NCBI GenBank assembly: GCA_947446935.1
Contig: CANFIV010000007.1
Location: 1 to 13,441 of the forward strand
DNA: 13,441 bases
Source: Sphingomonadaceae bacterium
GTDB taxonomy: Bacteria > Pseudomonadota > Alphaproteobacteria > Sphingomonadales > Sphingomonadaceae
Reading direction: 5' to 3'
In this document: piece by piece, positions 1 through 13,441 of the stretch
Position numbering within the stretch: the first letter of the stretch is position 1
How the letters are laid out: every line of letters starts with the position of its first letter
Notes under the pieces: generated by a model
The model's database searches: none
What the model saw: the letters and a program-made list of their open reading frames with translations, nothing else
Told to the model about the DNA's origin: nothing
Made by a program: the position numbers and the translations under genes

Positions 1-199
1 AGCCTCCCCCATCGAAGCTGCGGCCACCCGAGGCGGCTTCCTTGCTGAAATAGGTGTGCTCGTCGAAGGCCATGATCGCGGGCTCTCGTGCGAGTTGCAT
101 CGATTTGCGCGCCAGCACATCACGCTGCCAAGGCTGCGCGCCGATATGGGCGCAGCCCGAAAGCGAGATGAGCGCGGCGAGGAAGGCGATCCGCCGCAT
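1..199 (-). CDS. DUF4266-domain lipoprotein, N-terminal 66 codons only (runs off the left edge)
   Basis: The visible 66 residues start with a short lipoprotein signal peptide whose lipobox is LSGC (Cys16), so the mature protein should be a membrane-anchored lipoprotein. After it come QPWQRDVLA and the block HTYFSKEAASGGRSFDGGG, which is the signature of the short DUF4266 family; full members are about 70-75 residues and end in a Gly/Cys-rich tail that is cut off here. The ATG lies 2 bases beyond the TGA of the thioredoxin gene, so the two are surely co-transcribed and probably translationally coupled. In known genomes DUF4266 sits between a TlpA-like thioredoxin and a DUF3570 outer-membrane-type protein, often with an ApbE flavin transferase. 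The function of the cluster is not established, although extracytoplasmic redox work is the usual guess. Family call is confident; role is not. Confidence 0.88.
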   Translation of the reverse strand, partial: MRRIAFLAALISLSGCAHIGAQPWQRDVLARKSMQLAREPAIMAFDEHTYFSKEAASGGRSFDGGG

Positions 200-201
200 T
201 C

Positions 202-681
202 TCACTTCTCACGCACCAGCTGGGCGACGTGGCTTTCGTATTCGGCGGCCTTGCCCGGGAAGAAGCCTTGATGGCGAAAGCGCATCGAGCCCTTACGGTC
301 GAACACCAGCGAGGTGGGCATGTCTGCCACCTTCCACGTTTTCGCAAGATTGCCCGCCGGATCATAGACCACCGGCAGCGTGCCATGGACCTGACGCAGG
401 AAAGCTTCCGCAGCCGGGCGCTGGCGATCAAGATTGATCGTGACCACCGCAACGTCGCCTGCCGGATAGCGCGCGGCAAGCTGCTGCATGAACGGGAACG
501 AGAGCTTGCACGGTCCGCACCACGATGCCCAGAAATCGACATAAACGACCTTGCCGCGATACTTGGCGAGATCGAGCGCGTCGGCCTCGGCGCGGGCGGC
601 AATCGGGGCCATGGCAACGAGTGCTGCGCAGGCACCAAGGAGGGTGCGGCGGGCGAGCCGCAGCGAAAATCGGTTCAACAT
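202..681 (-). CDS. TlpA-like extracytoplasmic thioredoxin
   Basis: A 159-residue protein. Residues 1-31 form a signal peptide with twin arginines (ARRTLLG) before a hydrophobic stretch and an AxA-type cleavage site (AARA), so export may be Sec or Tat. The thioredoxin fold follows: VDFWASWCGPCK carries the redox cysteines (Cys55, Cys58), and VADMPTSLVFD holds the cis-proline loop, as in TlpA/ResA disulfide reductases. It should reduce disulfides in the periplasm. I chose the ATG at 681 because GGAG lies 9-10 bases upstream (691-694 on the minus strand); a longer version would start at a TTG that is part of that ribosome binding site. It sits 57 bases after the RTX gene and immediately before the DUF4266 gene, consistent with one operon. 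The actual reductant partner and substrate cannot be told. Confidence 0.93.
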   Translation of the reverse strand: MLNRFSLRLARRTLLGACAALVAMAPIAARAEADALDLAKYRGKVVYVDFWASWCGPCKLSFPFMQQLAARYPAGDVAVVTINLDRQRPAAEAFLRQVHGTLPVVYDPAGNLAKTWKVADMPTSLVFDRKGSMRFRHQGFFPGKAAEYESHVAQLVREK

Positions 682-738
682 ATGGGTAGTCTCCAACCGG
701 TGCGGGTATGGCCCTGCACCGGCGCGATCTGGGGGCGA

Positions 739-1530
739 CTAAAGGACGAAGTCGGTCGCGGAAAGGGTGTGGACCCCGGCCAGTTTTATGCAGAAGTCAG
801 CCGTCGTATCGCCGTTCACCTCGCCATAGACGTAGGTGTTGCCGCCCGAGACCGCATAGCGCAGCTCCGCGCCGGTGTGGTTGTGGAAGTTGTTGGTGCC
901 GATGAAGTGGAAGGCCTGGTTGCCGCTTGCGCCATAGCCGCTGGCTGAAACCTGCGCATCGATCGCGCTGAGATCGATGTGATCGCCAGTCGTGAAATCA
1001 ACGATGGTATCCGCCCCGCTGCTGGTCTTGCCAGTATCGGAGGTGGAAGCGAGCACGAAAGCATCGTTGCCGAGGCCGCCGGTCAGTGTGTCCATGCCGG
1101 TCCCGCCGATGATCTTGTCTGCGCCTGCTCCGCCGATGATCGTATCGTTTCCAGCAAGGCCGGAGAGCGTATTGGCCCCGTCGTTGCCGGTGATCTTGTT
1201 GGCCAGCGCGTTGCCGGTACCGTTGATCGCCGCCGAGCCGGACAGCAACAGGTTCTCGACATTGGCGGTGAGTGTGTAAGAGATGCTGGCCCTTACCGCG
1301 TCGGCGGTGCCCTGCCCGGCCAGCTCGATGACCTTATCGCCTATAGAATCAACAATATACAGGTCGTTGCCGAGGCCGCCGTACATCGTATCGTTGCCGC
1401 TGCCGCCATCGAGCGTGTCGTTGCCGTCGAGGGCTTTGAGGATATCGTTTCCGGCGAGCCCGAGCAGCGTGTCGGCGAGCGTCGTGCCGGTCAGCGTATC
1501 GATGTTGGCGGTTCCTGTGATCTTGGTCAT
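739..1530 (-). CDS. RTX calcium-binding protein with serralysin-type C-terminal domain
   Basis: 263 residues with no N-terminal signal peptide. Two blocks of GGxGxDxxx nonapeptide repeats are visible (about residues 22-60, for example [16 protein letters not shown], and about 120-155, for example [20 protein letters not shown]), which form Ca2+-binding beta-rolls. The C-terminal part ([17 protein letters not shown] onward) resembles the M10 peptidase C-terminal domain of serralysins, and the protein ends in SATDFVL, like the hydrophobic tail of type I secretion signals. No zinc-protease HExxH motif is present, so this is a short RTX protein without a catalytic domain, presumably secreted by a type I system encoded elsewhere. 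AAAGGCAG precedes the ATG. It is the first gene of the minus-strand run RTX, thioredoxin, DUF4266. A partner role for the thioredoxin is only suggested by adjacency. Confidence 0.9.
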
Positions 1531-1711
1531 GATCTGCCTTTCGGTTTGCTAGCGGACATCTGACAATGTGCGAGTGCACCGCCGGAGCAGAGACTTGCGC
1601 GGACGCATTTCGCGGCCCGATCACACCTCTTCACCCCACAACGCCCGGTTCGCCGGTCTATTCCCGGCACCTTTCTCAGACGTAAATGTTTCCCTTAAGC
1701 CCACTGCCCGA

Positions 1712-1910
1712 TCACACTGCAGTGCCAGCTAGCCGCCCGCTTCCGGCGGTTAGCGCCATGGCAAGGGCTCCCCAGAGGGTAACACGCAGGGTGGCCTTGA
1801 GCACCGGCCTGCACGCCAGTAGCGCCCAGCAGCGCAAGGAACAGGAGCGAGCCAATAGCCTCGATCTCGACCAGCATAGCCGCCGGTGCAAGGATCATGA
1901 TTGTGCGCAA
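1712..1910 (-). pseudogene. 3' remnant of a VIT1/CCC1-family metal transporter, frameshifted
   Basis: Two reading frames of the minus strand together give the C-terminus of a VIT1/CCC1-type (Fe2+/Mn2+ transporter) protein. The upstream piece (about 1890-1806) reads SLLFLALLGATGVQAG, a membrane helix. After a shift near 1805 the second piece (1804-1712) reads VLKATLRVTLWGALAMALTA and continues GSGRLAGTAV to a TGA. The LRVTxWGALAMAxTA block followed by a short G-T-A-V end is what I recall as the last helix of this family. The loop normally between the two helices (GGAP) is lost, together with the frame, and everything N-terminal is missing. A short open frame starting with TTG across the first piece is not a real gene. 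The identification rests on recognition of the C-terminal helices only. Confidence 0.6.
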
Positions 1911-2053: not shown

Positions 2054-2794
2054 ATGCCCTTAGTCTTGGGATCGCTGCTAGCCACCGCTTCGGTGGGTGC
2101 CGGAGTTTGGGATTTCACCGCTTCGGCACCGCCTCCGTCTTCAGAAGCCGCAACCACTGCACCCACGGGCGGGGAGTACGGCGAACTGATTGTCGGCGCC
2201 GCATAAGCAAAGCAGTTCGGCATCAGTCTGACGGCTGCCTTACCGGCCCTAGAAGTTTCACTCGCCACCTTGCCCGCTGTGATCGCGCCGCCGCAGAATG
2301 CGAGGCAGGCGGTTGCGGCCCCGCTGCCCGGTGTTGTGATGCGCACAATGCTCGTGGAGGGAGACAGTGTGCGGCGCGGACAGCCACTCGCCGTGGTGGC
2401 CAGCCGCGGTGTCCTCAGCCTGCGCGGTGATCTCTCGCGCGCTGGTGCCCGGCTAGAGGTCGCCCAATCAAATGCGAGGCGCTTGTCTCAGCTCAATAGC
2501 GAAGGGACAATCGCCGGAGCGCGCGCTGAAGAGGCAAGGGCCCTTGCGGCCGAGGCTCGCGCCGATGTGTCCGAAGAATCCCGCATTCTCCGCCTGGTGA
2601 ACGGCTAGGGTGCTTGCGGCACTTATACCTTGGTGGCCCCGATCGCCGACCATGTGACCGGGGCGAGCATTCAGGTCAGAAGCACTGTCGATGGCACCAC
2701 CGCCCCTTAGGTGATCGACGCGGTCGATCGCTATGAGGTGCAGGCGCAGCTTCCTGAGCGGTTGGTCGGCGCGGTCTGTCTCGGCCCGGAATGA
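2054..2794 (+). pseudogene. CzcB/HlyD-like RND efflux periplasmic adaptor, truncated, three in-frame stops
   Basis: Reading one frame from the ATG at 2054 (AGAGGG 6 bases upstream) gives a recognisable membrane-fusion protein of a heavy-metal RND pump interrupted by TAA at 2204-2206, TAG at 2606-2608 and TAG at 2708-2710. The order is: an N-terminal hydrophobic segment and Pro/Thr-rich linker; the first half of the barrel-sandwich domain (AAPLPGVVMRTMLVEGD, then RGQPLAVVAS); a long alpha-hairpin rich in Ala/Arg/Glu (about 2420-2600); the returning half (GTYTLVAPIADHVTGASIQV); and VIDAVDRYEVQAQLPERLVG of the beta-barrel. Homology stops at about 2790, where a TGA occurs, so the rest of the barrel and the membrane-proximal domain are gone. 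Apart from the stops there is no frameshift in some 740 bases. No RND pump or outer-membrane channel gene follows. Shorter open pieces inside (for example 2270-2608) should not be annotated as genes. Confidence 0.82.
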
Positions 2795-2959: not shown

Positions 2960-3287
2960 TGGCTTGGGACGAAGGAGCCAAACCAACGGGCTTCTCCGGC
3001 ATTGATTTTAAGATGCTGGCCAAGCTCTTCGAGGTCAGCCCGAAGCTCGCCCTGCAGAGCGGAAACGCCACTCCCAAAGGATGTTTCCTGCATTTTTGGA
3101 TAGATCGGACCGTCGGGCGAACGGCCCGCTGCCGATTGTATCAGGATTGGCACCATTAGAGCAATGCCGCGCTTAGGGTACAGCCAACCCTGCACCGTTT
3201 ACAGATGATGATGTATGACTTCCGATTTATGGCTGACATCAGATTAATAGGTGATCGCGAAATACCCTAACCCCAAAATAAATGGTT

Positions 3288-3307
3288 ACATTTTTGTGAA
3301 AAAATGT
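3288..3307. promoter_or_regulatory. AT-rich inverted repeat upstream of the repeat-protein gene
   Basis: ACATTTTT-GTGA-AAAAATGT is a perfect 8-bp inverted repeat with a 4-base centre, 27 bases before the chosen ATG at 3335. It may be an operator, or a hairpin in the leader of the mRNA. If translation began further upstream it would be coding, which is less likely given its composition. Confidence 0.35.
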
Positions 3308-3334
3308 TTAATGATTTTTTCTTCAGAGAAGTTG

Positions 3335-4552
3335 ATGGCTTTTAAGAATTATTACAGCCTGATTTTCTCCTTTTTATTCGTATTATTCATAAGCAATGAT
3401 CCGGTATATGCTCAGATTGCAGAAAGCTGGAGCTTATCTGGCGATGTCAGCGTAACAGCCGCCAATACCGACACGACAGTTTCCATTCAGCCAGCCTTCG
3501 GTTTCCTCATGAACTTGCCGACCATTTCCGATGGCGCCCGTGGTTCGATCAGCGCGGCTTCCGTTGGCGCTACCGCATCATCCAGTTACACTCATGCTGC
3601 GGGTGTCGATGCCTCGGTAGATGACATCGTTGTTGGGACCGTCACCATCACCGCATCTAATGTCGACAGCGCCGTGACAACCACAGGCTCGATCAATGGC
3701 GGCTTGATCGAAGGAGGCCACGACAATGCGATCACCGGCACTGCGTCGGGGGCATCGGCCCAGCTATCCGTGAACGACTATGTATCTAGCAGCGCCACTT
3801 TAACCGATAGCCTCACCATCAATGGCGAGATCGGACTTGATTCCGAGAATTCCGGTGCGGTGACCCTGCAGACGGATTTTGGTGCCGACGGCAGCGGCCC
3901 GCAGATCAGCGGTGGCACCCGCAATTCAATCAGCGGAATTGCCGTAGGTTCCTCAGCCGGCATCTCAGTTTCAACAACGGTTGATGATGGCACGTACGAA
4001 TCGAACATCGCGATCGGCACCGGCAGCCCAATCACGGTGACGGCGATCAACAGCGGCGATGTCACCATTGGCTATACCGACGATCCAACACAGCCCGCCA
4101 TGCTGAGCGGTGCGACAATAACGTCCGACAGTGTCAACAGCAGTGTTTCGCTAATGGCGGTCGGCGCCAGCGGGTTCGTGACGAGTTCCACGGTGGTCTA
4201 TTCCGGCACTGCCAGCCCCAGCGTATCGTTCGGCGACGTGAGTTTTGATGTTCAAAACACCGGCAGAGTGCAGGCGAATGTCTCGATCAGCGACATGTCG
4301 CTCGATGGATCGAACAGCATCAGCGCGGGTGCGGTTGGCTCCTCGGTAAGCTTCTCGGCCAACACGACAACCTACGGGGACGGTGCCATTAACTATACTG
4401 GTACCATTGGCAGTGTCAGCTTCGCGAGTGCCAACTCCGGGGCCATACTGTCAACTGGCGGCCTGTTCGCAACGACTATTGTACGCGGCTACAACGTCGC
4501 CAGTGCCCTTACTGCGGTTGGTTCGACGGCCTCGTTGCCTTTCACCAGCTGA
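3335..4552 (+). CDS. Exported beta-type repeat protein (six ~60-70-residue repeats), function unknown
   Basis: 405 residues. Residues 1-26 are a clear Sec signal peptide (MAFKNYYS, a Phe/Leu-rich core, VYA before Gln27). The mature part is Ser/Thr/Gly/Val-rich, has no Cys, and consists of six units whose core, NSISxxAVGSSAxxS, begins near residues 70, 131, 197, 268, 327 and 387. About 40 residues after each of the first five cores comes a second motif, NSGxV or a variant (near 109, 172, 239, 308, 367). This alternation suggests a beta-solenoid or tandem beta-domain surface protein. The sixth unit ends straight after its core (AVGSTASLPFTS), so the C-terminus looks cut short; no autotransporter barrel or anchor is seen. 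The ATG at 3335 was chosen for the signal peptide and AGAGAAG 4 bases upstream. A GTG at 3251 or ATG at 3311 would add a non-signal extension. The AT-rich 5' end suggests foreign origin. Confidence 0.72.
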   Translation: MAFKNYYSLIFSFLFVLFISNDPVYAQIAESWSLSGDVSVTAANTDTTVSIQPAFGFLMNLPTISDGARGSISAASVGATASSSYTHAAGVDASVDDIVVGTVTITASNVDSAVTTTGSINGGLIEGGHDNAITGTASGASAQLSVNDYVSSSATLTDSLTINGEIGLDSENSGAVTLQTDFGADGSGPQISGGTRNSISGIAVGSSAGISVSTTVDDGTYESNIAIGTGSPITVTAINSGDVTIGYTDDPTQPAMLSGATITSDSVNSSVSLMAVGASGFVTSSTVVYSGTASPSVSFGDVSFDVQNTGRVQANVSISDMSLDGSNSISAGAVGSSVSFSANTTTYGDGAINYTGTIGSVSFASANSGAILSTGGLFATTIVRGYNVASALTAVGSTASLPFTS

Positions 4553-4969: not shown

Positions 4970-5665
4970 ATGCGTGTTTTGTTGATCGAGGATGAGCCCA
5001 CCACAGCGAGGGCCATCGACCTCATGCTGAGCAATGAGGGCTTTAATGTCTATTCCACGGACCTGGGCGAGGAAGGCCTCGATCTGGGCAAGCTCTATGA
5101 CTACGATATCATCCTGCTCGATCTTAACCTGCCGGATATGCATGGGTACGACGTGCTCAAGAAGCTGCGTGTCGCGAAAGTCCAAACTCCTGTTCTGATC
5201 TTGTCGGGCATTTCAGAAATGGCTTCGAAGGTGCGCTCGTTCGGCTTCGGTGCCGACGATTACGTGACAAAGCCGTTCCACCGCGAAGAGCTCGTCGCCC
5301 GCATTCATGCCGTTGTGCGCCGCTCGAAGGGGCATGCGCAGTCGGTGATCCGCACGGGCATGCTGACAGTTAATCTTGATGCCAAGACTGTCGAAGCCCA
5401 TGGAGCCCAGGTTCAGCTAACAAAAAAGGAATATGCCATCGTGGAGTTGCTTGCGCTCCGCAAAGGCACGACCTTGACAAAGGATATGTTTCTTAATCAC
5501 CTTTACAACGGCATAGACGAACCCGAGCTCAAAATCATTGACGTTTTCATCTGCAAGTTGCGGAAAAAGCTAACCCATGCCTGTGGTGGGGATAATTATA
5601 TCGAGACAGTTTGGGGGCGTGGCTATGCGCTGCGCGATCTTGAGACCTTTGCTGAGGCAGCCTGA
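4970..5665 (+). CDS. ctrA: CtrA-type cell-cycle response regulator, probably an island-borne paralogue
   Basis: 231 residues, full length for CtrA. The receiver domain (1-118) has the acidic pocket (Glu7, Asp8), phospho-acceptor Asp51 in [13 protein letters not shown], the switch Ser in LILSG, and the conserved Lys in YVTKPF. The OmpR-type winged-helix domain (about 125-225) carries the CtrA-diagnostic stretches [27 protein letters not shown] and [15 protein letters not shown]. It ends in Ala-Ala, the kind of C-terminus that makes Caulobacter CtrA a ClpXP substrate. CtrA is a transcription factor controlling cell-cycle, motility and often gene-transfer or prophage genes. The start has AGAGG 4 bases upstream. 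Some positions differ from the sphingomonad CtrA I remember ([27 protein letters not shown]), and the neighbours are pseudogenes and accessory genes rather than the usual chromosomal context, so a second copy is likely but unproven. Confidence 0.88.
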
Positions 5666-5971
5666 CTTACAAATAAGGCTCAACGCGATTGCGGGAGAAT
5701 GTGGATTTGGCCTATCGGATCCCTGCCCGTGGCCTGCGTTTAAGGCTGCACACAACCAACGGCAGGCCACTTGTGGCCAAAAGCAGGCGTTCCAGCCTTG
5801 CACGGTTGTCGTCGTCGATTGACAGGGGTTAGGCCAGAACCGCAAAGAGAACGATGGCTGCCAGCAAAGTTAGCAACGATCGGAATGGCAATGCTTTTTG
5901 CTGACCCGGGTCATCCGGCGGCCTGAGGCGGGCCTGTACCGCTGATAGCCCCGTAGGACGCGGTGGCCGTT
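5666..5971. other. Convergent intergenic region with palindromes and a possible small ORF
   Basis: The CtrA-type gene (+) and the beta-propeller gene (-) converge here. I see no clear T-rich terminator. A perfect GGCCAC-TT-GTGGCC palindrome lies at 5765-5778. The right half is covered by a possible 57-residue minus-strand ORF listed separately. Confidence 0.4.
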
Positions 5972-6002
5972 CTATCGGCCACTTTCGGCCGAAACCGGAC
6001 AC
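5829..6002 (-). CDS. Possible 57-residue peptide with C-terminal membrane segment
   Basis: From a GTG at 6002 the minus strand encodes 57 residues beginning MSGFGRKWPIERPPRPTG, with a basic/Pro-rich middle (QARLRPPDDPGQQKALPFRS) and a C-terminal hydrophobic segment LLTLLAAIVLFAVLA ending at a TAA. It overlaps the last 31 bases of the beta-propeller gene in another frame, as a coupled downstream gene might. The sharp polar-then-hydrophobic layout resembles a small tail-anchored membrane protein. Against it: a GTG start with only a weak GGGCG ahead, no family I recognise, and its short length. It could instead be the old frameshifted tail of the propeller protein. Confidence 0.35.
   Translation of the reverse strand: MSGFGRKWPIERPPRPTGLSAVQARLRPPDDPGQQKALPFRSLLTLLAAIVLFAVLA
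5963..5982. terminator. Inverted repeat over the propeller stop codon
   Basis: GTGGCCG-N6-CGGCCAC is a perfect 7-bp inverted repeat with the TAG of the beta-propeller gene in its loop. It could end transcription of the minus-strand operon, but no T run follows in either direction, so this is a weak terminator call. Confidence 0.3.
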
Positions 6003-6991
6003 CGCCCAAACCCGAGGCCATTGGGTCCCGACAATCCCTCGATCGTAAGGATGTTTTCTCCCCGCAGGCCCAGAACGTTGATGTGATCGTCCTCCGCGTT
6101 GGATACGTAAATCAGGTTGTCCGGACCGCGCCGGACCAGGATCGGTGATCTGCCCGTCGTGACAAACTGCGGAGGTTCGCCGCTCGCAGGGAAGAGGGCG
6201 ATGCCCCCGTCACTGGGCGAGGGCGCGACAATCATCCCGTCGGGCCACTGTTCGGCATAGATGTACTGGCCGGGACGGGGCGCCTCAAGCCGCTGCATAA
6301 TCCCGAGATCGCCTGGGTCGAGCGTGAAGAGCGCACCCTTGGCGCTGGCCAGGATGGCGCCGGCCTTGGTTAGGAACAGCCCGCGGATGGGTGATCCGAC
6401 ATCCCCATGGGCCAGCACGCTACCGTCACCCGGATCGATCCGGCTGGCGCCGTCGGCACCGGCAAAGCTGTAGAGCGATTTGCCGTCCGCTGAAAAAACG
6501 AAATTGTGCGTCCCGTTCGGCAGCGGAAAGCGGCGGAGCAGCCGACGCGTACGCGTATTGAACACGAACATCACATACCCGCCGACCTCGGCGTTGACAA
6601 ACAGTTCGCTGGTGCCGGGGCGCAACTTCACCCCGTGCGGACCACGCGCCGGAGGCGGCAAAATGAAATCTGCGACACGCCGGGCGTTAAGCAGATCGAT
6701 CTCGGCAACACGATCTCCCGGCGTTCCGAGGCGGCTGTCGTAATCGGTGATGCCGAATTGCGAGACATAAGCGGTCTTGCCGTTTCGCGTGATGGTGATC
6801 TCGTGGGGCCGCACGCTGATTGGTATCGTTGCCACCACTGCACCGCCCGACGAGACGATGCCCAGTTGACCCGACGTTTCCTGAACGGAAAGCACGCAGG
6901 CTGCAGCCTTTGGCAGGTGCGCTGTAGCTCCAGCGGAATGGCTGAACAGCGCCACCCCCGACGCCAGCGTGATGGCAAACCTGTCGATCAT
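5972..6991 (-). CDS. Exported beta-propeller protein, YVTN/YncE-like
   Basis: 339 residues. A signal peptide (MIDRFAITLASGVALFSHSA, cleavage near GATA) directs it to the periplasm. The rest is a string of propeller-blade motifs: SVRPHEITITRNGKTAYVSQ, GPHGVKLRPGTSELFVN, GTHNFVFSADGKSLYSF, GPDNLIYVSNAEDDHINVL, each with the pattern of a His/Pro turn, then D/G-K, then a hydrophobic strand. This is typical of seven-bladed YVTN/YncE/lactonase-like proteins, which bind ligands or partner proteins more often than they catalyse. There is a Cys near each end of the mature chain, possibly a disulfide closing the ring. The ATG at 6991 (GGACGAGG just upstream) gives the cleanest signal peptide. An in-frame ATG at 7090 overlaps the permease stop as ATGA and would add 33 residues. 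It is third in the run with amidohydrolase and permease. Ligand unknown. Confidence 0.8.
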   Translation of the reverse strand: MIDRFAITLASGVALFSHSAGATAHLPKAAACVLSVQETSGQLGIVSSGGAVVATIPISVRPHEITITRNGKTAYVSQFGITDYDSRLGTPGDRVAEIDLLNARRVADFILPPPARGPHGVKLRPGTSELFVNAEVGGYVMFVFNTRTRRLLRRFPLPNGTHNFVFSADGKSLYSFAGADGASRIDPGDGSVLAHGDVGSPIRGLFLTKAGAILASAKGALFTLDPGDLGIMQRLEAPRPGQYIYAEQWPDGMIVAPSPSDGGIALFPASGEPPQFVTTGRSPILVRRGPDNLIYVSNAEDDHINVLGLRGENILTIEGLSGPNGLGFGRCPVSAESGR

Positions 6992-7086
6992 GGCCCTCGT
7001 CCGTTTCGGCCTGCACGATCCGCGCACCCACCCAGTCAAGCGTTGGCCCCGCGCCGTGAGCGCCCGCTGCCATTGCTTGGCGACGC

Positions 7087-8031
7087 TCATGCTCCCACCG
7101 CCCTGACCCGGGCGAGGCTGCGGTGTAGCCACCACCAGGCAAGTGTGATCGGTACAGCGACGGCATAAGCAATCACGCCGTGAAGGCCTCCGCCTGGAAT
7201 GGTCCAGAACAGCCAGGTGTCGGTCCCGCCGGGCACGATCTGGGCCCCGGTCTGCATGATGTAACCGCCCAACAGGCATCTGACTACGCCGCTCAGTCCA
7301 GGCGGTTCCAGTCGCCACTGTCCAGACGTCACATTTGCGATAATCGCCCCAAGAAACAGCGTCACGCCGGCGAACTGTGGGAGACCGAGAGCCAGTACGC
7401 CCGAACGGGCGAGACCGGCGATCGTTGCGCCGTAGCTCCAGCCGGGCAGGATCGAGAACATCAACAGCGCCGACACGCTCGCTATGATCACGCCCCCCAT
7501 GCGCTGTCGACCGCCCGCATTCGCCTTCGGGCCGAGGACGATCCATGCAAGGATCGCGAAGACGGCAGCTGTGGCGGCCAAGGGTGGAATCGACGCCTGC
7601 GGAACAAGGTTCTCCTGTTCGCTGAACATCAGCCGCCGCGGGACCGAAATCAGCTCGGCCACGTAAATGCCGATCAGGGTGAAGAGGTAACGGATCTTGC
7701 CCTGGCCAAGAAAGCTGACGCTGCCAAGATAGCAGCCATCGTTGAGGATGAACCCAATGGCGAGAAGCGCTGCGCCCACCGGGACAAGGCCAACGCCCGC
7801 GCCCGCCATTGGCAGGGGTAGCCGGTGCATTACAAGCATCTGTTCGCTGCCGAACAGGAATGCCATGGCGCCGATGGCCAGTGCCTGGAGACGCAATCCG
7901 CCAGGATCAGCCGCGAAGACAAAGTCATGGGTCGCGGTGATCAAGCACAGCCGCGCGCGGCCCATGCCAAAGCCCAGGCCGCAGGCGAACAGGAGGGCAA
8001 GTGTAGCGGCAATCAAACTGGCACCAGACAT
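7087..8031 (-). CDS. YeeE/YedE-family sulfur-compound permease
   Basis: 314 residues with about nine hydrophobic helices. The YeeE/YedE signatures are present: GFGMGRARLC (Cys29) in the first helix pair, LNDGCYLGSVSFLGQG (Cys100) in the middle, and GGYIMQTGAQIVPGGTD near the C-terminus. In the thiosulfate transporter YeeE, cysteines in such half-helix motifs pass the substrate along. Here the third motif has PGG instead of a Cys-containing sequence, as in a subgroup of the family, so substrate may differ. It sits in the inner membrane and probably imports thiosulfate or another small sulfur compound. It starts 61 bases after the amidohydrolase gene, and its TGA overlaps a possible ATG of the propeller gene (ATGA at 7090-7087), so the three are likely one transcript. 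Family is confident; substrate is inferred. Confidence 0.88.
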   Translation of the reverse strand: MSGASLIAATLALLFACGLGFGMGRARLCLITATHDFVFAADPGGLRLQALAIGAMAFLFGSEQMLVMHRLPLPMAGAGVGLVPVGAALLAIGFILNDGCYLGSVSFLGQGKIRYLFTLIGIYVAELISVPRRLMFSEQENLVPQASIPPLAATAAVFAILAWIVLGPKANAGGRQRMGGVIIASVSALLMFSILPGWSYGATIAGLARSGVLALGLPQFAGVTLFLGAIIANVTSGQWRLEPPGLSGVVRCLLGGYIMQTGAQIVPGGTDTWLFWTIPGGGLHGVIAYAVAVPITLAWWWLHRSLARVRAVGA

Positions 8032-8092
8032 CGTCAGTTTCCGGAGTTGGATTGACCTTGCCGCGTCGCAGTCAGAGCAAGGCCTTGGTCTA

Positions 8093-9388
8093 TCAAGGTC
8101 GGGGCTTGTCCGCGTCGGCCGGCGCCCGCACGATCTGGCCGCCCTTCATGACGAAGACGGGATGGGCCACCGCGCCGATGTCGACTGTCGGGTCGCCGGA
8201 CACCGCTACCAGGTCGGCGATGAAGCCGGGCTGCACTTTGCCCAGGCGTTTGCCTTCTCCCAGGATGGCGGCATCGATCGCCGTGGCGGCGGTCAGCGCT
8301 TCGGCTGGCGCCATGCCGTAGCGCACCATCCAGACAAGCTCGCGGGCGTTTTCGCCATGCGGATAGACGCCCACGTCGGAACCTGACGCGATGGTTACGC
8401 CAAGTGATCGCGCGGCGCGGAACGCCCGTTCACTATTCGCCATGTCTGCGGTAGGGGGCGTTTTTCCGGGTACATATCCGTGGAAGTAGATCCCGTAATA
8501 CTCCACTTCGGTCAGGGTCGGGACATAAGCGACGCCTGCCTTGGCCATCAGGCGAAAGGTCGCCTCCGATCCGCCCTTGCCATGCTCGATGGTGTCGACC
8601 CCCGCCACAATCGCCCGGCGCATGCCCTCATCCGATTCCGCATGGGCGGCGACTTTGCGGCCAAGGTCGTGAGCCTTGGTAACGGCGGCGGTCAGTTCCT
8701 CCTGAGAAAAGGCCGGCAGGGTCTCGCCGTTTGGTCCGATCTGGTAGTCGGCATAGAGTTTGATCCAATCGGCGCCAGCTGCGGCCTGATGACGCACAGC
8801 AGTGACAATGCCATCGGTCCCAGAGGCTTCTTCGGCGCCCTGCGGAAGGTCGCTGATCGTGTAATCCCGCCGAGCCGGGCCATAAGCGCCGGTCGCGACG
8901 ATAGCCCGGGTCACCACGTGCAGCCGAGGGCCCGGCACAAGGCCGGCATCGATCGCCTGTTTCAGCGCCACGTCGGAATTGCCGGTGCCTTCGGTGCCAA
9001 GATCCCGCAACGTGGTGAAGCCGGCATTCAGGGTGTCCCGGGCGTGGTTTGCAGCGGCCAGAACACGATGAGGCAGTTGCTCCTTAAGGACCTGATCATC
9101 CCACAGGGTCTCGCTGTAGGGATGGAGGAACAGATGCGAGTGAAGATCAATCAAGCCTGGCAGCAGGGTTGCGCCAGGCAACTGCAGCGTCCGCGTTCCC
9201 GGCGGCGCGACGATATCGGGGCCAACGGCCTGGATGGTGTCGCCGTCTACCAGCACTTTCCAGCCCGCGTGCGCGGTCCTGTCCTGAGCGGTGAAGACGC
9301 GATCGGGGGCGATTAGCAGCGTTTCACACCGGGCAGTCGATGAGGCCAGCGCGAAAAAGATGATACCAAAAGCCAGTCGCGAGCGCAT
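8093..9388 (-). CDS. Exported metal-dependent amidohydrolase (prolidase/imidazolonepropionase-like)
   Basis: 431 residues with an N-terminal signal peptide ([17 protein letters not shown]) and then a complete amidohydrolase-superfamily TIM barrel. Metal ligands are visible in order: His83 and His85 in LIDLHSHLF, Lys210 in DWIKLYAD (the carboxylated lysine of binuclear members), His249 in VAAHAES, His269 in DTIEHGKG, and Asp338 in [12 protein letters not shown]. The set fits the binuclear Xaa-Pro dipeptidase/Cc2672-like group, which hydrolyses N-acyl or dipeptide amide bonds. Being exported, it should act in the periplasm. The ATG at 9388 is preferred because GGAGGGG lies about 8 bases upstream; an ATG at 9412 precedes that ribosome binding site. 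It is first of the amidohydrolase, permease, propeller unit, so it may release a small (sulfur-containing?) product for uptake. Substrate unknown. Confidence 0.92.
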
Positions 9389-9712
9389 GAATCGGTCCCC
9401 TCCGTGGGCCATCTTCGTCTTCTTTGCAGCGCGTCGTTAGCTGGGACGCGCGCGGCGCGAAAGGGGGGGCGATGGCAGTTGGTATCTGGCTCATTGGCGG
9501 AAGAGAATGCGCAACTTAAACCGCAGGCCTGATGTGGATAGCGCTTCGCCCTAAAATCGCCGCGCGATAGCTCTGCCGGGGAAGGCGACTTTCCCCAAGC
9601 GCTTGCGGGAACCTGCCGGTCTTCTCACATCGCAAAGCGCATCGTTCCGTGTACCACGAAAAGTCCGATACTCTTGCCAATGCCAACTATTTTGCAATCG
9701 GCCCAAATGACC
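9389..9712. other. Gene-free stretch between terminase gene and amidohydrolase operon
   Basis: No gene is seen. Since both neighbours read leftward, it should hold the end of the TerS transcript and the promoter of the amidohydrolase operon, but I cannot pick a convincing -35/-10. Visible structure: GGGGAA-N7-TTCCCC hairpin at 9578-9596, the perfect palindrome CAAGCGCTTG at 9596-9605, and a run of seven G at 9463-9469. It is also the junction between mobile-element core and cargo. Confidence 0.5.
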
Positions 9713-10318
9713 TCAATCGTCAGATTTTGCGTATTCCACGGTAAAGGTCACTGGCACAGGTGCGGTATCGGCCCCCCGCATCAATCCCTTTATCTTCGCC
9801 AAGGCCACCAGCGATTGATGTTTGTCGCCAAGCTTCAAACGGGTGCGAATGATCTGCACTGTGTCGTCACCCCTCCGACCCACCCGGTCGACCGTGAAGT
9901 CTGTGATCGCTGCGGATTCGTCACTGGTTAAGCAGTCGATTTCACCGCTACCCAGCAACTCAGCATAATCCTTCATACGCGCGAATGCCGAGAGAGCCAT
10001 CTCGCCCACAATGCGATCGTTGATCACTTCGTACCTCTCGAACAGCACTTCTCGAAGTTCGGCCACGCGCGCCGCAATCCTATCATCTGCTATCAGCCTT
10101 GCTGCGTTCGCATGCATAGACTGTATGGTGCCTTTGAAACCCGCCTCGCGATATGCATCGGCCTGTGTGAGCCTGCCGGAGACAAGGTGCTGGCAAAAAA
10201 GCTCGTGGCGCTGATTTGCAAGTGGGCCGGGCATTGTGGGTGTCGCCTTTCGGAGGGTTCGAGTCTCAACTGGGGTGGCGCGGCCAAAGGTCGACCGAGC
10301 AATGGGGGAGCGCGTCAT
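9713..10318 (-). CDS. Phage terminase small subunit (TerS-like)
   Basis: 201 residues. After a basic N-terminal stretch comes the Terminase_2 pattern: LANQRHELFCQHLVSG, LTQADAYREAGFKG (helix-turn-helix), SMHANAARLIADDRIAARVAELRE. The C-terminal part (IRTRLKLGDKHQSLVALAKI) matches the usual end of this family, where the protein oligomerises and contacts the large subunit. TerS recognises pac/cos DNA and starts packaging. The ATG at 10318 has GGAG 8 bases upstream and overlaps the stop of the preceding gene as ATGA, so translation is coupled. No large terminase, portal, capsid or tail gene is in the window: downstream comes the amidohydrolase cargo. A lone TerS beside int/xis is what phage satellites such as PICIs carry, though a prophage remnant would look similar. 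Confidence 0.82.
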   Translation of the reverse strand: MTRSPIARSTFGRATPVETRTLRKATPTMPGPLANQRHELFCQHLVSGRLTQADAYREAGFKGTIQSMHANAARLIADDRIAARVAELREVLFERYEVINDRIVGEMALSAFARMKDYAELLGSGEIDCLTSDESAAITDFTVDRVGRRGDDTVQIIRTRLKLGDKHQSLVALAKIKGLMRGADTAPVPVTFTVEYAKSDD

Positions 10319-11226
10319 CCGGAAATCTCCGCTGTCCGGCTGGCCAAGAATGCCGAGTGCGAGAGGGCGCGGGCGCAGGCCATGTGCAGAGCGGACTGGT
10401 ACTGGGCGGGTAAATTTCGGCCCTTTCGAAACTTAGAGAGCGCCGATTCTGGAATGCCTGCATCGGCTGCTAACTGCCGAGCCCCGCCATATCCTGACTG
10501 ACGAATGATCGTTTCGCACCACTCCCTAAGTTCGGCCAGCGATGGGCCCGCGTAGGTTTGGTCGACATTCTGGTCGATTCCGGAAACATTTGCAGGTGCC
10601 GATGATCGAACTCTAGACTGGTATACTATATGGTGTGCAGTATCTGCAACACGGATAAGCCCCTCAAACCTGCGGCTTTCCGTCGGAAGTGTTGCAAAAT
10701 CTATGACGGAAACTTGCAGCTTATTTGCAGTATCTGTGACGCGAGAGGGCGTTCTTGTTGCAGACACTGCACCACCAAATTTTTTCTTCGCGCCCGGTAC
10801 CGGACGCCAATCGGCATACTCATGGGTGGCGGGGCGAATCCGCTTTTCTTTTCCCGTACTAATGTAGGTGAGGCGATATTCGCGTACCTTTGCGAGCGAC
10901 CGGCTTGCATCGCTCATGCACTCGAGGAAACCGTGCTCGATCAATTCGACTATCGCCCTGGACGCGGCGCGATGGTTCTGATCGCCGAGTGCGGCACTGA
11001 GTGCCTTCACACCCATAGCGATGGAACCGTTGTTGAATCCATTATGGCTCATCTGAAAAATCTGGAGCGCGACGCGCGCCCGCAGGGAAAGGTGCAGCCA
11101 CGCGACGCTTTTGAGCACGCGGTACGGCACCACGGAAAACTTGCCGCCATGTTCGGCCTTCTGCGGGCCCGCGCTCACCTCGCCTTCGCCTTTATGCGCC
11201 GCGCTGTCGAAGCCCGGCTGATGCAC
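10315..11226 (-). CDS. Two-domain DNA-binding protein (winged helix plus XRE-like HTH), replication/regulatory candidate
   Basis: 303 residues. Residues about 30-125 look like a winged-helix domain of the plasmid/phage replication-protein type: FSVVPYRVLKSVAWLHLS, then ALSAALGDQNHRAASRAIVE and LIEHGFLECMSD, a helix-turn-helix followed by a wing. A variable Ser/Thr-rich linker spans about 130-225. The last 70 residues contain a Cro/C1-like HTH (GGARQLAADAGIPESALSKF). It probably binds element DNA as a replication initiator or regulator; no primase or helicase motif is visible. The start is a GTG at 11226 with GAGG 10 bases upstream. Its TGA overlaps the ATG of the terminase gene, so the two work as a pair. 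It follows the excisionase-like gene by 119 bases, which include the small palindrome CGTGG-N9-CCACG at 11253-11271. Confidence 0.6.
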   Translation of the reverse strand: MHQPGFDSAAHKGEGEVSAGPQKAEHGGKFSVVPYRVLKSVAWLHLSLRARVALQIFQMSHNGFNNGSIAMGVKALSAALGDQNHRAASRAIVELIEHGFLECMSDASRSLAKVREYRLTYISTGKEKRIRPATHEYADWRPVPGAKKKFGGAVSATRTPSRVTDTANKLQVSVIDFATLPTESRRFEGLIRVADTAHHIVYQSRVRSSAPANVSGIDQNVDQTYAGPSLAELREWCETIIRQSGYGGARQLAADAGIPESALSKFRKGRNLPAQYQSALHMACARALSHSAFLASRTAEISG

Positions 11227-11345
11227 GTAACATTGGCCTCGCTGATTTGAACCGTGGAAAATGGTCCCACGCCACCTTCAAGCTCTGAACGACAAAACCG
11301 TGATAATACCTGCCGGGGGTCGAGAGGATTCTGGTTTATCATCGC

Positions 11346-11585
11346 TCAACACCCCTTTTCGATCAGGTCGTGAAGGCTGCTCGCGAGGATGAGCCGCCGC
11401 TTCCCAATGGTCGTGCTGGCAAGTTTGTTCTGCGCAATCAGTTGATAAATGCGACTGCGTGACAAACTGCTAACGCGGCATGCTGTGGGCACGTCATACG
11501 CTAGCACGGGGGTCTGTGCTACCAATTGCCTTGAAGATTGAGGACAAATTCCCTGATTGTCGGGCGCGGTACTGCAGATCGGCAT
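11346..11585 (-). CDS. xis: Excisionase-like helix-turn-helix protein
   Basis: 79 residues. The C-terminal 50 form a MerR/AlpA-type helix-turn-helix of the excisionase family (HTH_17): VPTACRVSSLSRSRIYQLIA, then NKLASTTIGKRRLILASSLHDLI, with the typical GKRRLI wing. The N-terminal 27 residues are polar and unassigned. Such proteins bend DNA at attachment sites to favour excision, and often repress or activate element promoters. The ATG at 11585 was chosen for GGAG 7 bases upstream; a longer TTG start at 11612 would include the ribosome binding site. It lies downstream of the integrase gene on the same strand, separated by 450 bases containing a large hairpin. The symbol is by family and position; a purely regulatory AlpA-like role is also possible. 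Confidence 0.75.
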   Translation of the reverse strand: MPICSTAPDNQGICPQSSRQLVAQTPVLAYDVPTACRVSSLSRSRIYQLIAQNKLASTTIGKRRLILASSLHDLIEKGC

Positions 11586-11620
11586 GTGAAGTCTCCAAGC
11601 GTTCGAGTACAAATCGAAAT

Positions 11621-11697
11621 CGCTTGACGCCTCATCCTTGATCTACAGATTTTGCACACACATTGGCTAACCGTAGATCGCGCTAAGGCGTCAAGCG
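11621..11697. repeat. Long nested inverted repeat upstream of xis
   Basis: Outer arms CGCTTGACGCCT (11621-11632) and AGGCGTCAAGCG (11686-11697) are a perfect 12-bp pair. Inside, GATCTAC (11640-11646) and GTAGATC (11673-11679) form a perfect 7-bp pair around a 26-base loop, separated from the outer stem by a 7/6-base internal loop. It ends 36 bases before the xis start codon. Confidence 0.75.
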
Positions 11698-11927
11698 GTG
11701 CTCGGCAGTGTCTTCCGTGCAGCTCCCGCATCGCGGCGAGCACCCTGACAATTAATCCCGAAGATTGAAGAGTCAAGAATTGACCGGGAAAAACAGGAGT
11801 GGACGCTCGCCACGATGCTGTGACCTCTACCGTTAGGCCGCCATCAGCCTAGCAGCTGCGGACGCTATTTCGCCTGCAGGCATGAAGTGAGGCAAATCGG
11901 CACGTCGCCGGATACAGTCAGTTGTCC

Positions 11928-11961
11928 TGCCTCGATGAGCTGCGTGGTATGCTTCGAGGCA
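11928..11961. terminator. Hairpin downstream of the integrase gene
   Basis: TGCCTCGA (11928-11935) and TCGAGGCA (11954-11961) form a perfect 8-bp stem, extendable by AGC/GCT inside after a 2-base bulge. It lies about 75 bases after the integrase stop on the minus strand. No T run follows, so a factor-dependent terminator or a protein site is equally possible. Confidence 0.35.
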
Positions 11962-12036
11962 CTATCCAGCCAAGTCCTTTCGACAACACACTCCGGCAAG
12001 ATCAGCAACGTCGGCGCTCATTCTGCCTATGAAGTT

Positions 12037-13206
12037 CTAGATTGCCAACTGCGCGAGCGCGTTCTCTGCATCGCTGCGGACCAAATGTCCGTAGTGTTTT
12101 TCTATCATTGCAACGCTCGTGCCAGAAAGCTGAGCAACCGTAAGTACTGGCAGGCCAACGCGCACAAGGTCGGTAATCACACTGTGACGAAGCGTGTACG
12201 CTGAAAGCTCGCTTGGCAGCTTAGCAGCAATTGCAGCGTCCTTGACGGGATGCTTCCATGCGTCCTTGTTCCACGCGCTGCCATCCGCGCGAGCGAACAT
12301 GCTGGCGCCGGGGGGCCTATCCTTAACTTGCTCTGCGAGAAACTCGGCAATGAGTTGCGGCACCGCAATCTGGCGCGGTCTACCGTTTTTGTCCTTGCCG
12401 ATAGTCAGCGCGCGAGTGCGATTTTCGAAATCTCTTGCACAAAGCGCGGCGATCGCGCCGGGCCTCAGCGGTAAGAGGCACATGGCTCGAATGAACGGCA
12501 CAGCATCTTGAGCAGCACATTCCAAGAGCTTCTTGCGCTCGTCGCGGTCTATGTAGAGACCTCGCCGCCTATCCGCCCCTCTATGTGGTTTCAAGGCTTC
12601 CTGCCAAGCTGCATCGGTCGCTGGGGCCCCCAGAGCGAGCACAGCGGCAATCGCCGCTCGGAGCGGCACCATGTCACGGTTGACGGTCGATTTCGCCCGC
12701 TCCCTCGTCTTCTTTTCGCCGCCTTTATTGCGAGACACCAGAGCAGGCGCCTCTTCAAGGCGTGTCCGCCAATCCCGCAAATGATGGCGGCGCAGCTTGT
12801 CGAGCCGAACTTTAGCAATGGGGTCACCAAGAACGTGTCGCCGGAAAACCCCTTCGGCGATTGCTCCAGGCTTGGCGCTCAAATATGCGCGGCAGGCGTC
12901 CGCCACAGTTTCGACTTTTTGAGCGCGAACTCCGCCAGTCTCAACCCGATCAGCCCACGCTTCAGCATCTCGCTTAGCCTGACTAAACACATCGTTGCCG
13001 GTCAAGTGACCGTAACCGCCTAGCGCCTGCCGCCGATATTTTCCGGTGTCCGCATCGTATGCGCGTGCGAACCATGTTCCGCGACCGCCAAGCTTCGCTG
13101 GTCGATAGCCGATAAAGCTACCGGCGCGGAGCCGCTGCCAGTGCGGTTCATCGCCCGCGCGCGGGCGCAACCTCTCCCGCTCCCCAATTTTACTCAGATC
13201 CGTCAT
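12037..13206 (-). CDS. int: Tyrosine recombinase (site-specific integrase)
   Basis: 389 residues. An N-terminal arm-binding region (1-90, with GTWFARAYDADTGKYRRQALG) precedes a SAM-like core-binding domain (about 95-175) and the catalytic domain (200-380). Catalytic residues: Arg248 in LLPLRPGAIAAL, a Lys in the turn KDKNGRPRQI, Arg340-His341 in YTLRHSVIT, and nucleophile Tyr372 in IEKHYGHL. The usual HxxR is YxxR here and the later GH is GT (LSGTSVAMIEKHYGHL), a pattern I recall as normal for alphaproteobacterial phage/island integrases, so the enzyme should be active. The ATG at 13206 has GGAAG about 8 bases upstream; the TTG before it is not needed. Its start faces the att region, 122 bases from a tRNA-Val 3' fragment, which is the likely integration target. 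Confidence 0.95.
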   Translation of the reverse strand: MTDLSKIGERERLRPRAGDEPHWQRLRAGSFIGYRPAKLGGRGTWFARAYDADTGKYRRQALGGYGHLTGNDVFSQAKRDAEAWADRVETGGVRAQKVETVADACRAYLSAKPGAIAEGVFRRHVLGDPIAKVRLDKLRRHHLRDWRTRLEEAPALVSRNKGGEKKTRERAKSTVNRDMVPLRAAIAAVLALGAPATDAAWQEALKPHRGADRRRGLYIDRDERKKLLECAAQDAVPFIRAMCLLPLRPGAIAALCARDFENRTRALTIGKDKNGRPRQIAVPQLIAEFLAEQVKDRPPGASMFARADGSAWNKDAWKHPVKDAAIAAKLPSELSAYTLRHSVITDLVRVGLPVLTVAQLSGTSVAMIEKHYGHLVRSDAENALAQLAI

Positions 13207-13215
13207 CAATCAGCT

Positions 13216-13237
13216 TCCATGAAATATCCATGAAATA
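13216..13237 (+). repeat. Tandem 11-bp repeat at the integrase promoter
   Basis: TCCATGAAATA occurs twice head-to-tail with no spacer (13216-13226, 13227-13237), beginning 10 bases upstream of the integrase start codon and covering its ribosome binding site region. It is placed like an Xis or autoregulatory operator. Confidence 0.6.
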
Positions 13238-13243
13238 CAGGGA

Positions 13244-13321
13244 TGGACAACGGTAGACAAGGTTAGAAAAACCTATTGATTTATAATGATTTCACAACGT
13301 CAGTGGACAGCACTAGACAGC
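13244..13321 (+). promoter_or_regulatory. Candidate integrase arm-type binding sites
   Basis: The heptamer TRGACAR occurs four times in one orientation: TGGACAA (13244), TAGACAA (13254), TGGACAG (13304), TAGACAG (13314). Spacing is 10 bases within each pair and 60 bases between pairs, so all lie on the same face of the helix. Paired, phased short direct repeats beside an att core are typical arm sites of tyrosine integrases. Confidence 0.55.
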
Positions 13322-13327
13322 TTATCT

Positions 13328-13377
13328 CACCCTTCACACGGGTGGGGTCGCAGGTTCAATCCCTGCCGCGCCCACCA
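13328..13377 (+). tRNA. 3' fragment of a tRNA-Val(CAC) gene: attachment-site copy
   Basis: The sequence folds as the 3' two-thirds of a tRNA: anticodon stem CACCC/GGGTG around TTCACAC (anticodon CAC, valine), variable region GGGTC, T stem GCAGG/CCTGC around TTCAATC, acceptor strand CGCGCCC, discriminator A and encoded CCA. The expected 5' half (GGGCGCG, D arm) is absent; the bases to the left are element DNA. This is the usual mark of an element integrated into a tRNA gene: the 3' fragment stays with the chromosomal flank and the intact copy sits at the other end. As a functional tRNA gene it is incomplete. Confidence 0.85.
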
Positions 13378-13406
13378 CCTAAGTCCTTGAATTTAGGTGT
13401 TATTTT
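13376..13406 (+). terminator. Intrinsic terminator after the tRNA-Val fragment
   Basis: CACCTAA (13376-13382) and TTAGGTG (13393-13399) form a perfect 7-bp stem with a 10-base loop, followed by TTATTTT. It starts within the CCA end and is most likely the original terminator of the tRNA-Val gene, which supports the view that DNA to its right is host chromosome. Confidence 0.65.
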
Positions 13407-13441
13407 GACTTAAACCAGTCGCAATTGAAACCATTTTTGGA

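Follow-up and report, generated by a model that had tools for sequence, protein, structure and literature searches.

A candidate phage-satellite-type element at the 3' end of tRNA-Val(CAC) lies beside host-like DNA in a Sphingomonadaceae genome

We analysed a 13,441-bp stretch of DNA (the window), which is the entire contig C7 of a metagenome-assembled genome (MAG, G000) of the Sphingomonadaceae. The MAG comprises 2.1 Mb in 389 contigs and is 53% complete, with a contamination estimate of 0.33%. Inward of a fragment of the 3' end of a tRNA-Val gene, the window carries four minus-strand genes for a tyrosine integrase (Int), an excisionase-like helix-turn-helix (HTH) protein, a two-domain DNA-binding protein with a winged helix and an XRE-like HTH (wHTH/XRE), and a terminase small subunit (TerS). 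The open reading frames (ORFs) and protein families agree with this gene set as first described in a sequence-only reading, and the named best matches agree with its label of the DNA as sphingomonad. These genes and the tRNA fragment make up the candidate core of a phage satellite at 9,588-13,377. Since the contig ends where the window does, the element must reach its far end elsewhere, and a second contig of the same MAG, C92, was compared with the window for attachment (att) sites and integrase arm sites.

The integrase gene (ORF 12037-13209, minus strand; probable CDS 12037..13206) encodes a protein of ~389 aa that matches Phage_integrase (7e-10) and phrog_1 (5e-32). Its start is probably the ATG at 13206, as most of its best relatives align from residue 2. 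Upstream of it, the presumed attR site (13328..13377, plus strand) consists of the last 50 nt of tRNA-Val(CAC) and is 100% identical to C92:4046-4095 (E 8.6e-19). The intact tRNA-Val(CAC) gene, which the sequence-only reading had asked for, is located at C92:4021-4095 in the same MAG as the window, and the 50-nt att copy is exact. A search against Rfam gave no match. Beyond the fragment lies a presumed chromosome flank (13378..13441, plus strand), which opens with a hairpin-like inverted repeat judged by eye; an inverted repeat also stands immediately past tRNA-Val in several relatives.

On the integrase side, two CCATGAAA repeats placed 11 bp apart (13217..13235, plus strand, starting at 13217 and 13228) are putative integrase arm-type sites. 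The same pair is found on C92 at 4131 and 4142, that is, 36 and 47 nt past tRNA-Val, and scanning both strands of the window and C92 reveals no further copies. The integrase-side pair and the C92 pair agree at 17 of 19 positions, a score reached by none of 1218 background windows from four other loci. Such paired direct repeats inside both ends agree at 17 or more of 19 positions in 12 of 16 bounded elements (own scores 14-19), while cross-element scores average 13.1 (s.d. 1.8), with a maximum of 19 between close relatives; L037, L038, L065, L118 and L161 were left out of this comparison. Paired arm sites recur at L097, L098, L099, L127, L141-L143, L147, L160, L172, L054, L060-L062, L132 and L171.

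The integrase has 147 confirmed relatives in GTDB genomes, the closest being 72% identical across residues 2-390, and the statistics on them rest on 80 kept loci. At 14 of these 80, the DNA upstream of int and the downstream DNA share a direct repeat of 18 bp or more, and 12 of the 14 repeats lie at a tRNA gene, 9 of them at tRNA-Val(CAC); for the other 66, no att repeat is seen within the fetched DNA. In IMG/VR, the family is found at 17 loci, and at seven of these int and an intact tRNA-Val(CAC) occupy opposite ends. The predicted target of this integrase family is thus mostly tRNA-Val(CAC). On plasmids, int finds only three records, each with less than 32% identity. In relative G016 (L039:10190-11050), a 228-aa integrase frame matches residues 2-186 only (75% identity) and stands beside the same 50-nt tRNA-Val fragment; it is apparently a decayed sister island.

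The excisionase/AlpA-like HTH protein (11346..11612, minus strand; true start uncertain) matches HTH_17 at 1.2e-7, with the HTH at residues 39-86. It reaches 7.5e-6 against TIGR01764, which is below the cut-off, and groups with the xis family of relatives. The next gene inward (ORF 10315-11226, minus strand; CDS 10315..11178) encodes the N-terminal winged helix and C-terminal XRE-like HTH, and its product is a putative replication initiator. In an alignment of 23 wHTH family members (A1), 20 of 22 homologues begin at the column of window Val17 (11178). The window protein has no Pfam match and only weak C-terminal matches (phrog_3949 at 3e-4; carph-isopro below the cut-off). Two of four relatives scanned against PHROGs (L042 and L038) match replication-initiator/DnaD-like profiles, but L044 and L285 do not, and the window protein itself has no replication-initiator PHROG match. 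Its model compared against the PDB finds 'initiator' and 'Rep-DNA complex' entries at E 0.04-0.1, which are not significant. A single-sequence scan of viral contigs with the wHTH protein led nowhere, and plasmid searches with the wHTH protein and with TerS gave no match.

The innermost gene encodes a phage-type TerS (ORF 9713-10318, minus strand; probable CDS 9713..10234) that matches phrog_51 at 1.8e-13 and Terminase_2 at 1.1e-5, the latter barely over the gathering score. When nine TerS sequences were aligned (A2), the resulting profile hit the small terminase of Pam5, whose structure is solved, at 7.5e-17. The structure model shows N-terminal helices and is of low confidence beyond them, and the protein retains the C-terminal residues common to its homologues. 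All eight homologues in A2 begin within a few residues of window Met29 (10234), so that the ATGA overlap with the wHTH gene, although present in the sequence at 10315-10318, is probably not the TerS start, and the translational coupling earlier read from it is doubtful. Int, the wHTH protein and TerS are all full-length open reading frames.

The TerS family often adjoins the terminase large subunit (TerL) in IMG/VR contigs. None of the ordinary-prophage set of TerL, portal, capsid and tail genes is recognised on the window contig by family and profile scans of the window proteins, and the earlier statement that no other virion or packaging gene precedes the metabolic genes is borne out among the proteins scanned. 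Negative results on virion genes hold for the DNA seen on C7 and C92, and the stretch between the two contigs lies outside that scope. Searches of 50,697 phage records with Int, the wHTH protein and TerS gave no match at E<=1e-5.

Among 396 genomes of the window's order, 25, its own included, have a member of the wHTH family at E<=1e-15; they represent 14 of 84 genera. Of 25 matching places in other genomes, 20 were fetched and five were not; the gene was called in 19, and an integrase lies within 9 kb in 18 of these 19. We then considered 40 wHTH loci including the window, 27 from genomes of its order and the others from IMG/VR contigs and named genomes, some of which were chosen by their integrase. 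Among them, 38 have an integrase within 9 kb, 17 an AlpA-like gene as far as the detection used here shows, 17 a major capsid protein (MCP), 11 TerL and eight a portal gene. Eleven of the 40 pair TerL with head genes, as in capsid-forming phage-inducible chromosomal islands (cfPICIs); at L057, for example, PHROGs identify MCP, protease, portal, HNH, TerS and TerL. Judged by these profile matches, the integrase and wHTH families of the window overlap with those of capsid-forming satellite-like elements, and the window has TerS only. Candidate capsid-forming satellites, with MCP, protease, sometimes portal, and TerL beside the integrase or wHTH family, are L054-L060, L062, L064, L177-L179, L280, L287, L290, L292 and L296.

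Both ends are defined for nine wHTH elements. Seven of these measure 9.9-11.0 kb (L065, L160, L279, L283, L284, L285 and L296) and the remaining two 5.9 and 6.3 kb (L132 and L294), a range that is partly a matter of ascertainment, since the fetched flanks hide elements of roughly >13 kb. L038, with 23-bp repeats separated by 13.3 kb, and L280, with 25-bp repeats separated by 3.9 kb, were left out of the set; neither pair lies at a tRNA gene. Defence-type genes were observed at L279 (PDC-M01A and SMEK/Aga-type proteins) and at L281 and L098 (type IIG restriction enzymes).

In elements lacking TerL, 47 of the 58 proteins listed downstream of the wHTH gene were scanned, and, among the families shown (25 of 35), a single TerS match was found. 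It belongs to L285 (7189-18030), a 10.8-kb element between 50-bp repeats at tRNA-Arg(ACG) with the order int, 168 aa, AlpA-like (phrog_66), 87 aa, wHTH, 57 aa and TerS (phrog_1482, 1.6e-22), followed by two DNA methyltransferases and other genes. Neither the profiles nor a PHROGs scan of nine further proteins recognises TerL, MCP or portal in L285, and several of these nine lack any match. The same gene order with different cargo, which had been proposed as a search in related genomes, is thus present in L285, but its TerS is from another family, indicating that TerS was acquired at least twice or replaced. The idea that the four genes travel together stands in part: int, wHTH and often the AlpA-like gene do so in small tRNA-linked elements with varied cargo, but the window-type TerS lies beside the wHTH gene in 1 of the 40 loci, the window itself.

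As only one integrase match was found in the incomplete MAG, C92 is most simply, and probably, the far end of the same element. On this basis the island spans no less than 15.7 kb, the sum of 2,356 bp on C92 and 13,377 bp of the window, to which the unseen stretch between the contigs has to be added. The DNA of G020, the closest relative compared by ctrA and sciP trees, next to the DUF4266 gene yielded no contig linking C92 and C7.

Left of the core, a minus-strand block at 5774..9587 encodes a beta-propeller-like protein, a Sulf_transp permease and an amidohydrolase and is 90.5% identical in nucleotides to G020:C288 over 3,815 columns. The match stops sharply at 9587, and the left edge of the satellite-type core lies at 9588..9712. 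Nucleotide identity between G000 and G020 is 94% for ctrA and 88% for sciP. The 90.5% of the block falls within this background, which makes the block host-lineage DNA, either inside the island or brought beside it, and its recent transfer as cargo was rejected on the same ground. The amidohydrolase, permease and propeller genes, once taken for the cargo of the satellite, are therefore better described as host-lineage DNA than as proven cargo. In G020:C288, the block adjoins genes read as amidase and RNase E/G, without a family search on either; an amidase-like gene has no match in the MAG. A simple insertion of the core into a G020-like chromosomal site was also rejected, since G020 C288 contains nothing that matches the flank at 13378-13441, and 9,380-9,740 holds no att remnant that rises above background.

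Further left, the window carries an extra ctrA copy (4970..5665, plus strand), and an extra sciP lies on C92 (5845-6141, locus L004). The MAG thus holds two ctrA genes (window and C43) and two sciP genes (C92 and C2), of which C43 ctrA (8070-8714) and C2 sciP are the canonical copies by identity and synteny. The ratio of nonsynonymous to synonymous substitution rates (dN/dS) of the extra ctrA is about 0.04-0.06, with dS >1.2 and near saturation, and is about three times as high in the DNA-binding half as in the receiver; for the extra sciP it is 0.08-0.13. By this measure, both extra copies are divergent but under purifying selection. On trees they form long branches of unsure position among genus sequences. 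Neither the window nor C92 contains a CtrA box (TTAA-N7-TTAA). Both extra copies seem to lie within the island, and we regard as a long shot the further proposal that this tRNA-Val satellite-type island carries a functional CtrA and SciP under purifying selection, diverged mainly in the DNA-binding half of CtrA, which would couple the island's excision, replication or packaging with the cell cycle of the host. Plasmid records with a ctrA homologue at E<=1e-50 number 45, which rules out ctrA on mobile DNA as unprecedented, and 18 have a sciP homologue at E<=1e-10. Relative G035 (L350:10709-11440) likewise has an additional ctrA, which is divergent (77%).

Three other parts of the window were described. 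Window 1-1901, which has 78% identity to G020:C204, encodes DUF4266, thioredoxin-like and RTX proteins. Window 2273-2770 is 68-73% identical to DNA of several relatives, has nothing but short frames on both strands and looks like a broken gene. The 433-aa product of window 3251-4552 looks by eye like a secreted, repeat-rich protein of adhesin type; its gene lies in a stretch of low GC (47-58%), and Pfam, NCBIfam and PADLOC give no match.

Taken together, the gene content, att identity, matching arm sites and family context well support a satellite-type core. Our working model, which we hold with moderate confidence, places the integrase-proximal core of an integrative element of the phage-satellite type at 9,588-13,377, with the element inserted at the 3' end of tRNA-Val(CAC) and packaged by a helper phage. 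As predicted from the genes, Int and the AlpA-like protein would recombine the tRNA-Val(CAC) att sites by way of the CCATGAAA arm sites, and the wHTH/XRE protein would start replication of the excised circle and may regulate the element as well. TerS would then tag element DNA for the TerL and capsid of a helper phage, whether superinfecting or induced, as the element itself has no recognised TerL, portal or capsid gene. Its other end would probably be the tRNA-Val end on C92, with non-standard DNA, including the extra ctrA and sciP, between it and the core.

Several observations weigh against this model. Integrases of the same family also occur in loci without recognised satellite genes, the window-type TerS has that single occurrence beside the wHTH gene, and no helper phage was found. 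The C92 arm sites match the integrase sides of L097, L098, L099 and L127 with scores as high or higher (17-18), so that the arm sequence marks an integrase subclade rather than a single element, and no contig seen joins C92 to the window. At 15.7 kb or more, the inferred element is larger than most bounded wHTH elements (9.9-11.0 kb), the DNA left of 9,587 looks host-derived, and C92 carries a DDE_3 transposase fragment and breaks in an apparent IS3-type transposase end (by eye), both pointing to decay. The size, the transposase remnants and the host-like block favour an island that is composite or has partly decayed. Of the satellite-like island first proposed, the core stands, but the compact satellite with metabolic cargo does not, and the element is best described as a credible but unproven satellite beside unusual host-like DNA.

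The best-surviving alternative, unlikely but to be taken seriously, is a composite genomic island in which an old satellite core remains at the attR end and the rest has been replaced by insertion sequence (IS)-borne, plasmid-derived and host DNA; Int would still carry out excision and integration, TerS would be a relic and packaging would not occur. Besides the probable size and the transposase remnants, it is favoured by the end of the host-like block at 9,587, by the occurrence of ctrA and sciP homologues on sphingomonad plasmids, and by the 66 of 80 integrase relatives without an att repeat in the fetched DNA, which suggest that larger islands may be common. However, Int, the wHTH protein and TerS have full-length reading frames, and TerS keeps its C-terminal residues. 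We consider it improbable that the arrangement is an assembly or binning artefact, in which a chromosomal segment ending near 9,587 was fused with an unrelated satellite fragment, or C92 and C7 derive from separate strains. The breaks of the G020 match at 9,587 and 5,774 without an att remnant there, the fragmented and half-complete MAG and its two ctrA and two sciP copies would fit an artefact, but the same TerS and wHTH proteins occur on two contigs, the longest of 15,631 bp (the DNA to their left was not seen), and the contamination estimate is low. A decayed ordinary prophage, with int and terS as the two ends left once the virion genes were deleted, had been named the main alternative and gains from the pairing of the TerS family with TerL in many phage contigs, but it is the least probable explanation and an ordinary prophage remnant was rejected, because TerS is the sole virion gene recognised among the window proteins scanned, Int, the wHTH protein and TerS are absent from the phage records, and int-(xis)-wHTH is an order seen repeatedly, also in elements of about 10 kb with both ends defined.

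A wide variety of small tRNA-linked elements that share an int-(AlpA)-wHTH core appears to reside in genomes of the window's order; a head cassette is present in some, only TerS in at least two, and neither is recognised in many. Should the TerS-only forms be packaged, they would offer a tractable alphaproteobacterial satellite system, and the gain and loss of head cassettes could be compared inside one family. In addition, arm-site pairing provides a simple means to match element ends across contigs of fragmented genomes.

Satellites of the phage-inducible chromosomal island (PICI) type, including Staphylococcus aureus pathogenicity islands (SaPIs), are compact, at roughly 8-15 kb. The window core resembles them in its tRNA-type att site, integrase, AlpA-like regulator, putative replication gene, TerS and lack of structural genes. 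The element has a site-specific integrase, and its att repeats lie at a conserved gene, with the two ends on separate contigs; an AlpA/excisionase-type regulator is present by HTH_17, with TIGR01764 below its cut-off; and TerS without TerL or capsid genes is present for the DNA seen on C7 and C92. Unlike PICIs, the element probably reaches 15.7 kb or more, given C92 as its other end, and includes host-like DNA, and it has the wHTH/XRE protein as its putative replication protein where PICIs have a primase-helicase. Compared to cfPICIs, relatives with the same integrase or wHTH family carry head cassettes of the MCP-protease-portal-HNH-TerS-TerL type, whereas in the window none of the cfPICI head cassette (own MCP, protease, portal, TerS and TerL) is found except TerS, which is from another family. 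Four loci from named Sphingomonadales at tRNA-Val(CAC), L097, L098, L099 and L127, share integrases 68-72% identical to that of the window and the same att and arm-site layout, but no wHTH or TerS is recognised in them; L099 has Toprim and DUF3987 genes, and L098 has its type IIG restriction enzyme. L285, from a genome of the same family as the MAG (G287), has the int-AlpA-wHTH-TerS order with no TerL, MCP or portal recognised, as in the window; it differs in its TerS (phrog_1482 instead of phrog_51), its methyltransferase cargo, its 50-bp att repeats at both ends and its wHTH protein, which is 36% identical to its best match in the analysed set.

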